Source: an uncultured Pseudanabaenaceae cyanobacterium (GTDB lineage: Bacteria > Cyanobacteriota > Cyanobacteriia > Pseudanabaenales > Pseudanabaenaceae). From it: a stretch of 63,134 nucleotides of DNA. The position numbers were made by a program, and so were the translations under genes. The stretch covers positions 1-63,134 of the forward strand of contig CALGKB010000012.1 in assembly GCA_937927915.1 (NCBI GenBank). The letters run 5' to 3'. The notes below the pieces were generated by a model. The model had not been told where the DNA came from. It ran no database searches and saw only the letters and a program-made list of their open reading frames with translations. Shown piece after piece: positions 14,556 to 37,767 of this stretch (the stretch's first letter is position 1; each line of letters starts with the position of its first letter).

Positions 14556-15624
14556 TACTGCGCCAAAGGTGTTGAATCTTCGCAACAAGACTTAACATTG
14601 AAGGTTAGATTTAGCCTACCAAATGCCTACCTATTTCTATCCGTAAATATCGTAATTTCTCGATGAGTTAACAACTTAAGCAGTAAATAACCAATCAGTA
14701 CAGCATAGATTTGTAGTCGCACTCCATTCTCATTCTTTGTGATTATGCTCTCCAATTTCAATTGCATCTTCAATTTGCCAGCGTAGACGATAGGCTTCCT
14801 TGATTTCCTCGTTACTCATGTCTTCCACATTAGTAGCTAGTTTATACCCAATGTTATCTTCTTCATTAAAAAATTGAACACCCGTACATTAGGATTGTCT
14901 GGATTGAGTTTCATGTTATTTCTAATCCGTACAATAAACAATGTATGTCTCTGGCACATTTCATCCACTAATTTCCAAGAACTAAAAAACCTCTATCCAT
15001 GATGTCAAAGGCATCCTCTGGTATCGTTCTGATGACAAGATTGCCAACTTTTTGGTCACTAATTTGTCCAAAAGTAATTATTTTATTACCAATGTTACCT
15101 GGGTTTATATCAAAGCAAAGAGATACTTTACTTGGTATACTTGCTGTTGCCAAAATAGTTTACTTGTTAAAGTTATGATGGTAGAATCTAGAGGAAATAA
15201 ATGCTTAAATTCTCCGTAGTTTTGTCTTTTAAGACGCTGTTGCAACTCTCTTAAAATGCGTTGAAATGGTTCAGTACTAAGAGAAAGAGTAAGCCCCTCA
15301 TTGTGAAGATTCTTGCATCCAAAGTAAAGTCTATCCAGATGAGGACAAAGAGTTGAGAATCCAGAACAGGATAATCATTTTGGGGCATAAGTCTTAGCAA
15401 GGGCTTGATAAGTTGCCGAAGTTGTTTTAAGATAAACTCAAATCTGTTTGCTATTTCTCAGAGCTAGGAGACCATTTCTGGCTCCTTCTTTCTGCCTCTT
15501 TCCTAACATTCAAAACTTCTGGCATTGTACTTTAATGCAAATCTTGGGGCTTGAGCCTCTGGTAGGGTAAATCTGACTTCTAATATTAACTTTTGTTGCG
15601 AGAACATTCAACACTTTTGGTCTG
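14556..15624. mobile_element. Decayed IS4-family insertion sequence
   Basis: Both ends share a long diverged terminal inverted repeat of about 65-70 bases. The left end has CCAAAGGTGTTGAAT, CGCAACAA, then GATTTAGCCTACCA; the right end, reversed, has CCAAAAGTGTTGAAT, CGCAACAA, then GATTTACCCTACCA. The interior carries a minus-strand DDE transposase broken by stops and frameshifts. Outer limits are approximate, and no clear target duplication was found. Base composition is AT-richer than its surroundings and it contains no CGATCG cores. Confidence 0.8.
14627..15525 (-). pseudogene. Broken IS4-family DDE transposase
   Basis: Pieces of an IS4 transposase can be read on the minus strand in shifting frames: NYGEFKHLFPLDSTIITL, with the first catalytic Asp, near 15190; DIMDRGF, with the second Asp, near 15000; FIVRIRNNMKL near 14920; the YREK-type EAYRLRWQIE near 14780; and a C-terminal NGVRLQIYAVLIGYLL near 14690. 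At least three stops or shifts separate them, so it cannot make a full protein. The longest intact piece is 61 codons at 14968-15153. Confidence 0.8.
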
Positions 15625-32956: not shown

Positions 32957-33160
32957 ATGACTACTGATCCAGACTTACTCTGGTGGGGGGAGATGATAGG
33001 GGCAGACCAGGTGCTGTCCGATCGGGAGATGATTGCCATGCTATGCCCTCACCTAGCTGGTAAAACCCTGGCAGAACTGACCCCTGCAGAACTAGCAGAG
33101 GTAATGCGTGTTGCCGAATCCTTTCCTGTTGGTACTATGTCGGAAGAGGAGGAGGACTGA
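32957..33160 (+). CDS. 67-residue acidic protein, unknown function
   Basis: The ATG follows the aminotransferase stop directly and the stop overlaps the next start (TGATG), so it is embedded in the run and very probably translated. The protein is acidic and helical (TLAELTPAELAEVMRVAES) with a highly acidic end (SEEEED). No motif is recognised and there is no membrane segment. Confidence 0.65.
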   Translation: MTTDPDLLWWGEMIGADQVLSDREMIAMLCPHLAGKTLAELTPAELAEVMRVAESFPVGTMSEEEED

Positions 33161-33588
33161 TGCAGGTAGAGTTTCGGGAATGCGACTGGTTCAACCTGTG
33201 GATTTGGATTGAATTTCAAGAGCATCTGACGGAGCGGGAAAAGCAGATCATCGATGAGGTATTTTCCTCTTGGTTTTTGCTAGGGAAGTTGGGGGGCTTC
33301 AATGCTACTAATTTGCAGGTACTGGAAGCGGGAGTAGATGTCAGTCATTTTGACTATGACTCTGACAGCATGGCAGGGGAAATGATGGCAGTGATGCACA
33401 ACATCAGCGATGTGGAATACGAAGGCAATTGGGCACGTTGTTGGGTAGATTTGGGAACGGCGGATGCCATCGCCCTGGACACGTTGCTGAACACCCTCTA
33501 CCGCCTTAGTGAAGAATATGTCCCGATCGTGAAAGTCTATATCGGTGGCGAACAGGAACATTGGCCCATCGATCGGCGCTACGACTAG
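33160..33588 (+). CDS. DUF3531 family protein
   Basis: A 142-residue soluble protein starting MQVEFRECDWFNLWIWIEF, with LGKLGGFNATNLQV, MHNISDVEYEGNWARCWVDLGT and a conserved tail. This matches the DUF3531 family of cyanobacteria and plants as I recall it; no function is known. It is the last gene of the plus-strand run that began at 29.3 kb and overlaps the preceding gene by one base. Confidence 0.82.
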   Translation: MQVEFRECDWFNLWIWIEFQEHLTEREKQIIDEVFSSWFLLGKLGGFNATNLQVLEAGVDVSHFDYDSDSMAGEMMAVMHNISDVEYEGNWARCWVDLGTADAIALDTLLNTLYRLSEEYVPIVKVYIGGEQEHWPIDRRYD

Positions 33589-34215
33589 GGATAAATACTT
33601 GGGTCGCTTTGATCGACTGAACTCACCGAAATCTCTTGCAGCTCATTCTCGTGAAGGTCTGGCAGATGCTGTCTCTTTTCACACTAGAAGATAGCCAAAG
33701 CTGGTTTTCTCAATGTTGTTACTAGTCGTATAGGGCTGTAACTTTTTATCCTGTCTGCTCTGATTACACTATCCATCCATCCTAAAAAACGTGCCAATAT
33801 GTAACCCACTGCTTCAGTTGCCCTCCTCAACCTTTGAATCCTTAGGTTTTCTACCCCGTTGGCTACCTCTTGTAGAACTTCCCCTTTATTACTACTTCAT
33901 CTCAGAATAGTAGATAGGATTGTGCCTGAACTTTCTGGTAAGAATAATACTTTGCTCTCCCGTGGGCGCAAGACATCAAACTCATACCTCTTCCTCTCCT
34001 CTTGGTAGTGGTTTTGATAGACCACTTTGATACATGACTATCTACTGCAGGGAGTGGTAGGGGAATTTCCGTTTGGGTCGAGCGTCTTGCCGAGGAAGTC
34101 AGGTTTGGTTTGGAATTACAGATATGGTTAGAATTTGGTACATGAAGGGTCTACAGTCCATATTTGAAAGCTTTAGTTAGAAAAATGTTAAGTTTTCTGT
34201 GAGGGTTCAATACTA
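33589..34215. other. 627-base gap without a recognisable gene
   Basis: No frame of protein-like quality was found. A minus-strand stretch near 33860-33900 reads SSTRGSQRGRKPKDSK, which vaguely recalls the N-terminus of a transposase, but nothing follows it. The region is pyrimidine-rich, AT-richer than the flanks and has no CGATCG core. It leads into the decayed glycosyltransferase gene and is probably degraded foreign DNA. Confidence 0.4.
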
Positions 34216-34263
34216 TTGGATTACTATATTTTCTCTCTTCTACTGCTAAGCCCCGCAAGTAAA

Positions 34264-35337
34264 ATGTCTACTCTATCCCAGAGCTTGGTAATATTAAACT
34301 TACGTTCAGACCCAATCGTCGTGCATAGTGTATTTACTACTAACTTTCCGCAGGTTCTTCAGAGTTTGGGGATTAGTTTGGTAGTGTCCAGCTATCAGGC
34401 AGGATTTTTAATCGTTGTGGGGGCGGATGGTGATAAACTTAACACCCACTTCCGCCGGTTTGATAAACCAATGGGACTGGCGGCAGATGCTGAAAAAATT
34501 GCTCTTGGCTCGACTTATCAGATTTTAGAATTTCGCAACTTACCTGATCTGGCTACTAAATTGAAACCTCTCAGCAAACATGATGCCTGCTACCTCCTCC
34601 GCCAAGCTCACATTACAGGAGATATTGACATCCATGAGATGGCGTATGCAGATGATGAGATTTGGTTTATCAATACCAGATTTTCCTGTCTATGCACGCT
34701 CGATCGTGTCCATAGTTTTGTCCCACAGTGGCGACCACCGTTTATTTCTGGCTATGACTTAACCGATCGGTGTCATCTGAACGGTTTGGGGCTGCGAGAT
34801 GGCAAACCCCGTTATGTCACAGCTCTGGGGGATACAAACACTCCCAACGGCTGGCGGGCAAATAAAGCAAGAGGTGGAATATTGATGGACATAACGACCA
34901 ATGAGTTTATCTATCGTGGTCTATCTATGCCCCACTCTCCCAGATGGTATCGAGACAATCTGTGGCTCTTGGAATCAGGCAATGGCAGTATTGCTACGGT
35001 GGATTTACGCACAGGAAAACTAACAACTGTTGCTGAACTACCAGGTTTCACCAGAGGTATAGATTTCTATGGGGATTTAGCCTTCATTGGTCTTTCCCAG
35101 GTGCGAGAGACAGCCGTGTTTAGTGGTATTCCCTTAGCACAGAGGTTGGCCGATCAAATTTGCGGCATCTGGATTATCAACATTGTTACAGGGGAAACAT
35201 TGGGATTCCTACGATTTATGGAAGGAGTACAGGAGATTTTCTCTGTTGCTGTTTTGCCCTATCGTTTTCCGGAAATTTTGGAACTAAATGACGATCGTCT
35301 TACTAATTCTTTCTTCTTACCTGATGCAGCATTCTGA
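34264..35337 (+). CDS. TIGR03032 (DUF4915) family protein, probably the 5' part of a broken gene
   Basis: About 357 residues. The family is clear from VFTTNFPQVLQSLGISLVVS, SYQAGFLIVVGADG, DKPMGLAAD, HEMAYADDEIWFINTRFSCL, and GGILMDITTNEFI with LWLLESGNGSI, a propeller-like fold of unknown role found in large cyanobacterial surface-polysaccharide proteins. The stop at 35335 is followed in the same frame by 88 sense codons that begin a glycosyltransferase, so the stop is probably a mutation inside a once longer gene. An upstream TTG (34216) is possible, but the ATG at 34264 fits better. Confidence 0.7.
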   Translation: MSTLSQSLVILNLRSDPIVVHSVFTTNFPQVLQSLGISLVVSSYQAGFLIVVGADGDKLNTHFRRFDKPMGLAADAEKIALGSTYQILEFRNLPDLATKLKPLSKHDACYLLRQAHITGDIDIHEMAYADDEIWFINTRFSCLCTLDRVHSFVPQWRPPFISGYDLTDRCHLNGLGLRDGKPRYVTALGDTNTPNGWRANKARGGILMDITTNEFIYRGLSMPHSPRWYRDNLWLLESGNGSIATVDLRTGKLTTVAELPGFTRGIDFYGDLAFIGLSQVRETAVFSGIPLAQRLADQICGIWIINIVTGETLGFLRFMEGVQEIFSVAVLPYRFPEILELNDDRLTNSFFLPDAAF

Positions 35338-36762
35338 GATGTAGTACAACCAAACCAAGCTCAACTACCAGAACGATCAATCGATTCTTTCTCTGTCATT
35401 GTACCGATTTATAGTACACAAAGTAAGGGAGAAGGAATTTTACAATGCACACTCAAGAGTGTAGAAGCTAGTATTAACTATTATCTAGAGCACGAAAAAC
35501 CAGAATACTATTGTCAGTACGAGGTAATATTAATAAATGATGCTTCTACAGATGGGACTTGGGAAGTTGTTAAACAGTTTGTCAAAGGTAAGTCATTCTA
35601 TTGATTAGTGGAACACGATTGAAATCACGGTTAGGCGGCAGCACACAATACAGGGGCAAAAGTAGCTATGGATAAGGTGATGTTCTTCTGTGATGATGAT
35701 GACCTGTTTTATCCCCAACATATTTGGTTAGCTTTGCAGTTGATGAATCAACAGTAAATACAAATGCTAAGTTTAATCTACCCTTTAACCTACCTGCAGC
35801 TGTGCGAATGGCTGTACATACAGCCGATAGGTTGCATCCCTATTGGAAGGAACAGATTGAAAGAGTTCTATGCTTAAATTTGTGTGTGCGTAAAGAAGCC
35901 CATGATTTCATTGAGGGTTTTCCTGAAGGTGAGGTATTTCGTCAGTCAGAGTTTGGTAATGAAGATACAGTGTATGCTAATTGGCTAGCTAATTTCTGTA
36001 CTATTGTTCGCTCTACCGAAGAAACAGTGATATGCGTTGTCGAGGAAATTTATTAGATCGACAATTAGAGAAGTTTTAGAATTTACCAGGGGCGATAGCA
36101 GCCGAGAGTGGGATAGAGCGATCGAATTCTACGAAAAAACAGTTAGCATTCAAGCTGACAAAGCTATCTCCCATTTGAACTTGGGCATGGAATTACTACG
36201 CAAAGGAGAGTTTATTTAGGGCTGGCAGGAATGTGAGTGGCGGTGGCAAACACCTGAATTTACCCCCCTAAATGTACCGAAACCGCAGTGGCAGGAGGAA
36301 GACATCAGTGATAAAACAATTTTGGTCTATATAGAACAAGGCACAGGGGATGCCATTCAGTTTATTCACTATGCTCCGATCGTTAAACAACTATGTCGCC
36401 GTTTAACAGTCCTGTGTCCTGAGCATATGTACGAATTATTTAAGTTAGTGGAAGGGATTGATGAACTGCTATTACCTGGGGAAATTCCCTTGTCATCGTT
36501 TGATACTTATATTCCTTTGTTGAGTATAGCAAGGGTATTGAAGATTACTCCCTACAATACTCCCACTCCTATCCCCCACATAAGACCCGTTTTACGACCA
36601 GAAATGGACGAGTTTATGAAGCAGCATTTAGGTAAATTTAATGTTGGCTGTGCCTGGGTTGGCAGTCCCAGCAATAAAGATAACCATCTCCGATCCTGTC
36701 AAGTTATTGATCTTCTGATGGGTTTAAAAAAACAACAGACTAATCTTGCAACAATTCCTTAG
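35338..36762 (+). pseudogene. Decayed glycosyltransferase GT2-TPR-GT9-like region
   Basis: Successive remnants follow the TIGR03032 domain. In the same frame come SFSVIVPIYSTQ and YEVILINDASTDGTWEVV (GT2 start), then after two TGA and one TAG codon HNTGAKVAM, FFCDDDDLFYPQHIW (GT2 DxD region) and TAA. In a shifted frame come LNLCVRKEAHDFIEGFPEG to about 36050. After another shift comes a TPR unit AISHLNLGMELLRKGEF, a TAG at 36217 in place of a sense codon, then GWQECEWRW and a GT9-like stretch (EQGTGDAIQFIHYAPIVKQL, VGCAWVGSPSNKDNH) that ends abruptly at the anti-sigma gene. Non-functional. Confidence 0.8.
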
Positions 36763-37132
36763 GCATGGGTAACAGAGGCTGCTCCAAGGCTAAAATCAAA
36801 GGCTCTTCCTGTGCCTGTTGCCAACTGTATTTCTGGCTCACAAATACTCCCCCCACACTCAACAGACATACCCCCACTAGAGCTAAAGCCCGCCCCCACC
36901 AGCGCTGTTGCTCTCGTCTTTGAATATAGCCCCACGTGGCATGGATAGAGGTAGACACAGGAACATTGCTGACGGGAACTCGCCACAGTTGTTGTAACCG
37001 CAGTTGTTGGCGATAGCACAAAGCTAACTCCGGGTCAGACTGCAACCACTCTTCCACCTGCGCCTTTTCCTGCGGTGAAACTTCCCCATCTAAATAACTG
37101 CTCAATAGTTCAAACTTTTGCGGGTCAACCAT
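36740..37132 (-). CDS. Anti-sigma factor paired with the SigG-type sigma
   Basis: About 130 residues. The N-terminal cytosolic anti-sigma domain (FELLSSYLDGEVSPQEKAQVEEWL) precedes one membrane helix (GRALALVGVCLLSVGGVFVS) and a short periplasmic tail. It lacks the HxxxCxxC zinc motif. It sits directly downstream of the ECF sigma gene, as in other cyanobacteria, and should hold that sigma inactive at the membrane. Start codons GTG at 37141 or 37138 are also possible; GGAG lies near them. Its 3' end cuts into the remnant of the glycosyltransferase pseudogene. Confidence 0.82.
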   Translation of the reverse strand: MVDPQKFELLSSYLDGEVSPQEKAQVEEWLQSDPELALCYRQQLRLQQLWRVPVSNVPVSTSIHATWGYIQRREQQRWWGRALALVGVCLLSVGGVFVSQKYSWQQAQEEPLILALEQPLLPMPKELLQD

Positions 37133-37140
37133 GGTCACCA

Positions 37141-37767
37141 CTACGCTCCTAAATATGATTTTAATAGAGACTGTAATTTCAGACGGGCACGGGCAATGCG
37201 GGATTTTACTGTCCCGATCGATACACCCGTAATCTGGGCAATTTCTTCGTAGGAAAGACCTTCCACTTCTCGCAGGGTAATTGTTTCCCGAAACACACGG
37301 GGTAGAGTAGCGATCGCTCTTTGCAATTCCTCATAGAACTCTTGGCGGGACAAATTCTCCACAGGACTGATGTCCTCACTGGGTAAATCCCATTCCAAAT
37401 CTCCATCCCCTACTGACAAAGGGGCATCCAAAGACAGGGGGGCTTGCTGCCGCTTGCGTTTGCGCAGTTCGTCGTAAAATAAATTGGTGGTGATACGGCT
37501 AATCCAACCGACAAACTTTTCTGGCTCCTGCAGTCTTTTGATATTGCGGTAAACCCTGAGCCACACCTCCTGGGCTAAATCTGCCCGATCGTTCCAATCT
37601 GGGGCTAACTTATACAACAGCTGGTCAACGTGGTGTTGGTAACGGCGCATGAGGCGGGCAAAATCCGCTTTGTTGGGGGCGACACCCTGCTGACACAGAC
37701 GGACCAGATCGGTGCTAGAAGGCTGAGATTCAGAAGACACGGCAGACCAAGATAGGCTGTAGGTCAT
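37141..37767 (-). CDS. sigG: ECF RNA polymerase sigma factor SigG
   Basis: About 208 residues. Region 2 is visible as ADFARLMRRYQHHVDQLLY and DRADLAQEVWLRVYRNIKRL with FVGWISRITTNLFYDELRKRKR; region 4 is LPRVFRETITLREVEGLSYEEIAQITGVSIGTVKSRIARAR. The linker SLDAPLSVGDGDLEWDLPSED is like that of SigG of other cyanobacteria, an envelope-stress type sigma. The frame extends to 37881, but that extra part contains the petF terminator, so the ATG at 37767 is chosen. The anti-sigma gene overlaps or abuts its stop. Confidence 0.9.
   Translation of the reverse strand: MTYSLSWSAVSSESQPSSTDLVRLCQQGVAPNKADFARLMRRYQHHVDQLLYKLAPDWNDRADLAQEVWLRVYRNIKRLQEPEKFVGWISRITTNLFYDELRKRKRQQAPLSLDAPLSVGDGDLEWDLPSEDISPVENLSRQEFYEELQRAIATLPRVFRETITLREVEGLSYEEIAQITGVSIGTVKSRIARARLKLQSLLKSYLGA

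Follow-up and report, generated by a model that had tools for sequence, protein, structure and literature searches.

An early-stage pseudogene of a rare four-domain TIGR03032 architecture, with its first domain intact, in a cyanobacterial genome

The closest described family to the locus reported here is TIGR03032 (PF16261, DUF4915). A literature search for the words TIGR03032 and DUF4915 found neither, subscription journals lying mostly outside its scope, and no title among the matches listed in a further search names the TIGR03032 family. Comparison is offered by intact multidomain genes of other cyanobacteria. The intact multidomain protein, for which an earlier first-pass annotation of this DNA had suggested a tblastn search, is encoded by four single-frame genes in three cyanobacterial genomes: one of 1076 aa in G078, one of 1073 aa in G051 with an adjoining, diverged second copy of 1026 aa, and one of 1152 aa, measured stop to stop, in G132. 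Pfam detects DUF4915, GT2, TPRs and a GT9 motif, in this order, in the proteins of G078 and of both G051 genes. The two G051 genes stand in tandem (L034 6684-13067), and the second propeller is strongly diverged, with a tree end branch of 2.46. When 291 genomes of the class were searched with the G051 protein (E <= 1e-130, at most two candidates scored per genome), 23 matched, and the match extended past the propeller through the GT2 core in five of these, namely G051, G078, G132, the sister-species genome G002 and the genome studied here.

Simpler arrangements were seen among the best 80 matches of the scan, which provided 79 loci from named genomes. At 41 of the 79 loci (three of them, L101, L124 and L140, broken or cut) the frame that carries TIGR03032 is no longer than 450 aa and matches nothing else, a TIGR03032-TPR-GT9-like form was found at 23 and a partial form at 2, and a longer frame without a match to the GT2 or TPR-GT9 queries accounted for 13. 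None of the 79 loci had a GT2 match within the TIGR03032 frame; because the GT2 queries came only from the G051 and G078 domains, a very different GT2 may be missed in this count.

We analyzed a window of 63,134 nucleotides, which is contig C12 of genome G000 (2.40 Mb in 13 contigs), cyanobacterial as judged from its relatives. The stretch 34264-36717 preserves the remains of a single gene for a protein with a TIGR03032/DUF4915 domain, a GT2 domain, TPRs and a GT9-like domain (Table 1). The first-pass annotation had followed four domains of one protein in order through this stretch, a reading supported by alignment both to G002 and to the intact one-frame relatives. G002 belongs to the same genus and aligns co-linearly along the window gene, with DNA identities of 74.6% over 1825 columns and 73.8% over 611 columns, far above chance, and with 82% amino acid identity in domain 1. 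The four-domain genes of G078, G051 and G132 have the same domains in the same order (57% identity to the G078 protein over TIGR03032-GT2); theirs are intact, whereas the copy in the window has lost its reading frame behind domain 1 and is truncated. Three-domain TIGR03032-TPR-GT9-like genes such as L071 and L076 share the head and tail domains, are likewise intact and have no GT2 match in frame. Phylogenetically, the window and G002 pair (100/100) within a cyanobacterial group of 15 rows (98/90), and L071 is among the rows nearest the window domain. This group mixes free-standing, three-domain and four-domain forms, and the forks inside it are partly open.

Table 1 Features in and around the broken gene (positions are those of the window)
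Feature	Positions	Strand	Basis
Second fossil, upstream: DUF4351-family gene remnant with stops and a frame change	33759-34083	-	
Open TIGR03032/DUF4915 beta-propeller, 357 aa, frame 1, ATG to TGA at 35335	34264-35337	+	Profile matches, structure model
GT2 domain, first part, frame 1, stops at 35602, 35620 and 35632	35338-35754	+	Pfam, alignment to G002
One-base frameshift (one base lost), frame 1 to frame 3, approximate place	~35750	+	Alignment to G002
GT2 region, C-terminal part, frame 3	35754-36029	+	tblastx, 84% over 61 aa to G002
Short frame-2 stretch ending at stop 36077	36032-36079	+	Alignment to G002
Deletion scar, ~337 bases net missing versus G002 (linker and first TPRs)	36080-36102	+	Alignment to G002
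Final TPR plus N-terminal half of GT9-like domain, frame 1, one stop (36217)	36103-36717	+	Alignment to relatives
Unmatched junction, reaching to the anti-sigma gene's stop codon	36718-36739	+	Without match to G002
Open anti-sigma-like gene, weak zf-HC2 just above Pfam cut-off	36740-37141	-	

Inspection of the alignment to G002 resolves the damage into six stops (35335, 35602, 35620, 35632, 36077 and 36217) and three frame changes that lead from frame 1 to 3 to 2 and back to 1, in keeping with the earlier count of at least two frameshifts and of a first domain that is fully open. Every stop in the earlier list is present, but the one at 35755 follows from the one-base frameshift, downstream of which it lies, and does not count as a lesion of its own; the stop at 36077 had been overlooked. 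Four bases are lost near 36029, and the net loss of ~337 bases, between 36082 and 36103, accompanies the last frame change. The gene is truncated near 36717, before the GT9 motif and ~124 codons short of the end of the G002 gene. The remnant had been described as cut off at the end of the anti-sigma gene; the truncation itself holds, but homology stops near 36713-36717, leaving ~22 bases before that gene's stop codon (36740-36742) unmatched to G002. The C-terminus of the anti-sigma-like gene is conserved in G001 and G002. Stops and frame changes from 35335 on leave no single open frame for a functional TIGR03032-GT2-TPR-GT9 protein, and the several disabling lesions relative to intact homologues identify a pseudogene.

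Profile searches were run on the individual open pieces. The open domain (34264-35334) matches PF16261 (DUF4915) with an E-value of 2.7e-128, well past the cut-off. GT2 matches cover 35338-35601 (E 1.1e-8) and 35635-35754 (E 3.3e-4, below the Pfam cut-off), and 36046-36216 gives a weak TPR match whose best E-value of 0.004 is below the cut-off. Alone, the C-terminal part of the GT2 region has no Pfam match, and the open pieces 35724-36053 and 36220-36759 have no significant family in the profile search and were identified via alignment to relatives. The C-terminal GT9 motif (PF01075) occupies residues 984-1017 of the intact G078 protein, which the window remnant matches only to residue 940. 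Because the gene is cut off before this motif, only the N-terminal half of the GT9-like domain is left.

The surviving domain is a member of the TIGR03032 family. It fits nearly the full TIGR03032 model (415.1 bits against a cut-off of 251.5, model positions 6-331 of 335) and shows no difference within the domain; what distinguishes it is the ruined C-terminal part behind it. The match ends at residue 348 of 357. We compared this with 91 rows of homologues having a stop within 150 aa past the propeller, a few of which represent the same place twice; the tail, measured from the tblastn match, is 5-30 aa long in 72 of them, and the open part ends about where free-standing TIGR03032 proteins do. 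Within 100 to 3000 bases of downstream DNA, C-terminal homology lies behind the TIGR03032 gene in 4 of the 91 rows: the window itself, L154; L101 and L140, on MAG contigs where error is possible; and L020, which has an open neighbouring TPR frame. An AlphaFold2 model of domain 1, built from 51 aligned sequences, gives a confident propeller fold (pLDDT 91.1, pTM 0.90). The closest solved folds are YWTD-type beta-propellers of the LDL-receptor family and nidogen (VIA-align Z ~24, 2.7-3.0 A over 237-240 residues). YWTD-type propellers are six-bladed. The fold is held in common at a sequence identity of ~9-12%, and a shared fold shows no shared function. The Foldseek list is headed by the designed SAKe6 protein and includes many Kelch domains.

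To date the decay, each half of the gene was compared with G002. The open part yields dN 0.102, dS 1.24 and dN/dS 0.082 (NG86; bootstrap 95% 0.05-0.121), and the remainder dN 0.167, dS 1.61 and dN/dS 0.104 (NG86; bootstrap 95% 0.049-0.151). The two ranges overlap, and ten open neighbouring genes give 0.018-0.128 for the same genome pair. The comparison of rates in the open and broken parts that the first-pass annotation had proposed thus returns low values in both, and the decay is therefore recent. Set against the values of the neighbours, both halves therefore evolved under purifying selection, and the gene was functional during the greater part of the period after the two species separated. 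A branch codon model with four taxa finds no difference between the window and G002 branches in either half (2dlnL 0.31 and 0.0), has little power with its very long outgroup branches, and gives present selection on the open part no support.

Departures from family-conserved residues are distributed unevenly. Of the 71 columns that at least 90% of 49 homologues conserve, the open part keeps 69, and its two departures compare with a range of 0-8 among those homologues. In the broken TPR-GT9 piece 22 of 30 family-conserved residues remain, with eight departures where 25 other homologues have 0-5 and G002 has 4. The contrast is significant for the window (2/71 versus 8/30, Fisher p 0.0008), and the G002 equivalent gives 3/71 versus 4/30 (p = 0.19). 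Part of the contrast between open part and tail is not due to decay, because the tail evolves faster in both lineages (12/190 open versus 18/114 tail for the window; 8/186 versus 13/109 for G002). All six stops and three frame changes lie downstream of the propeller and none upstream, a distribution with a chance of 0.05-0.065 from stop opportunity alone; this test and the conserved-column test were chosen after the data were seen, and three of the stops are close together. The conserved-residue contrast is suggestive and no proof.

On these observations the stretch represents a single four-domain gene that was broken recently; its last three domains are destroyed, and its first domain is still open and conserved. 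It is probable that the tail is dead and that the propeller is a usable free-standing gene, now or until very recently. The first-pass annotation had left a choice between a decaying gene and an open part kept for its own use; recent decay of the tail is established, and retention of the first domain is favoured though unproven.

It is possible, if somewhat doubtful, that the whole gene is dead, and so recently that the first domain is by chance still unhit. The low dN/dS in both halves speaks for recent decay, the lesion argument taken by itself is weak at the chance given above, and a fossil neighbours a gene without a promoter-like site upstream: a scan for sigma-70-like sites on the + strand from 33560 to the gene found none, giving fewer sites than its shuffles. 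Death of the whole gene is countered, however, by the loss of conserved residues in the TPR-GT9 piece (8 of 30) when the propeller lost only 2 of 71, and by the free-standing form being normal and common in the survey (41 of the 79 loci). Sequencing or assembly errors in an intact gene are very improbable; only one genome of the species was compared, but six stops, three frame changes, the net deletion of ~337 bases and a truncation that abuts another gene all fall within 1.4 kb, while ten neighbouring genes align cleanly, and resequencing is unlikely to remove these lesions. Least credible of all is that the domains are separate adjacent genes and were never one protein: TIGR03032 is often free-standing and does occur as a gene of its own in more distant homologues, but for the nearest architecture four intact frames in three genomes join the four domains in the same order, with G002 co-linear.

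Several further candidates were rejected. A second copy elsewhere is not present, G000 having only one TIGR03032 match. The missing 3' half does not lie elsewhere in the genome; the matches on C1 and C2 are long, open, paralogous TPR-GT9 frames. Programmed readthrough or frameshifting is set aside, the lesions being too many. An RNA element is rejected as well, no Rfam match at the gathering threshold being found in 33000-37500. A single frame of ~3142-3145 aa, in which TPR-GT9-like modules recur, is open in both genomes, at ~270-278 kb of G000:C2 and ~180-188 kb of G002:C1.

The surroundings indicate further disturbance. The upstream DUF4351 fossil shares 47% identity, in one stretch of 89 aa, with a 285-aa open-frame DUF4351 protein on G000:C5 (L051 5347-6204). 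Counterparts of the window's upstream neighbours lie on C3 of G002, those of its downstream neighbours on C6 and that of the gene on C1; because they occupy three contigs, the region is rearranged in one or both genomes, with the fossils in the rearranged junction. No clean common empty site was found, and the 5' flanks of the two genes show no clear similarity, as expected at such divergence. Separately, a decayed insertion-sequence-like repeat occupies window positions 14563-15620 and also occurs on G000:C5, where an open reading frame matches a DDE transposase domain. A phage-integrase-family gene stands directly upstream of the G002 copy (L032 7419-8576), and its relative in the window genome is elsewhere, on G000:C2.

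The sister copy is damaged as well. The G002 gene is split within GT2 into one frame of 508 aa and another of 598 aa, the propeller frame being whole, and the split is due to a 13-bp exact tandem duplication (L032 10617-10680). A repeat of this kind might in principle revert. The one-base frameshift of the window lies ~25 bases from the G002 break position and is a different lesion. The two copies known in the genus are thus each disrupted downstream of the propeller, and each in its own way. The G002 tail is also without short in-frame stretches. No TIGR03032 match was obtained in G001, a third genome from the genus, which is 90% complete.

Overall, the locus is a recent and ordinary pseudogene; its four-domain architecture is rare, and its first domain is intact and plausibly still in use. 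The process is ordinary pseudogenization at an early stage, with the mildly interesting twist that the head is still whole. The TGA nonsense codon at 35335, which lies directly behind the propeller, would have created a free-standing TIGR03032 gene of ordinary size, after which the untranslated tail would have gathered further stops and deletions, and the propeller may still be held by selection or have been until very recently. It would serve as a putative binding or scaffold module without the glycosyltransferases to which it was formerly tethered. Tentatively, this may amount to domain salvage, in which that codon turned a four-domain glycosyltransferase into a free-standing gene still selected while its tail rots, with the sister species independently losing the same tail. 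Were this true, the parallel loss in the sister would suggest how free-standing members of a widespread family originate. The locus separates the propeller from its glycosyltransferase partners and thereby provides a natural experiment. Should the propeller still be produced, it would fulfil its role without needing the enzymes that are fused to it in relatives.
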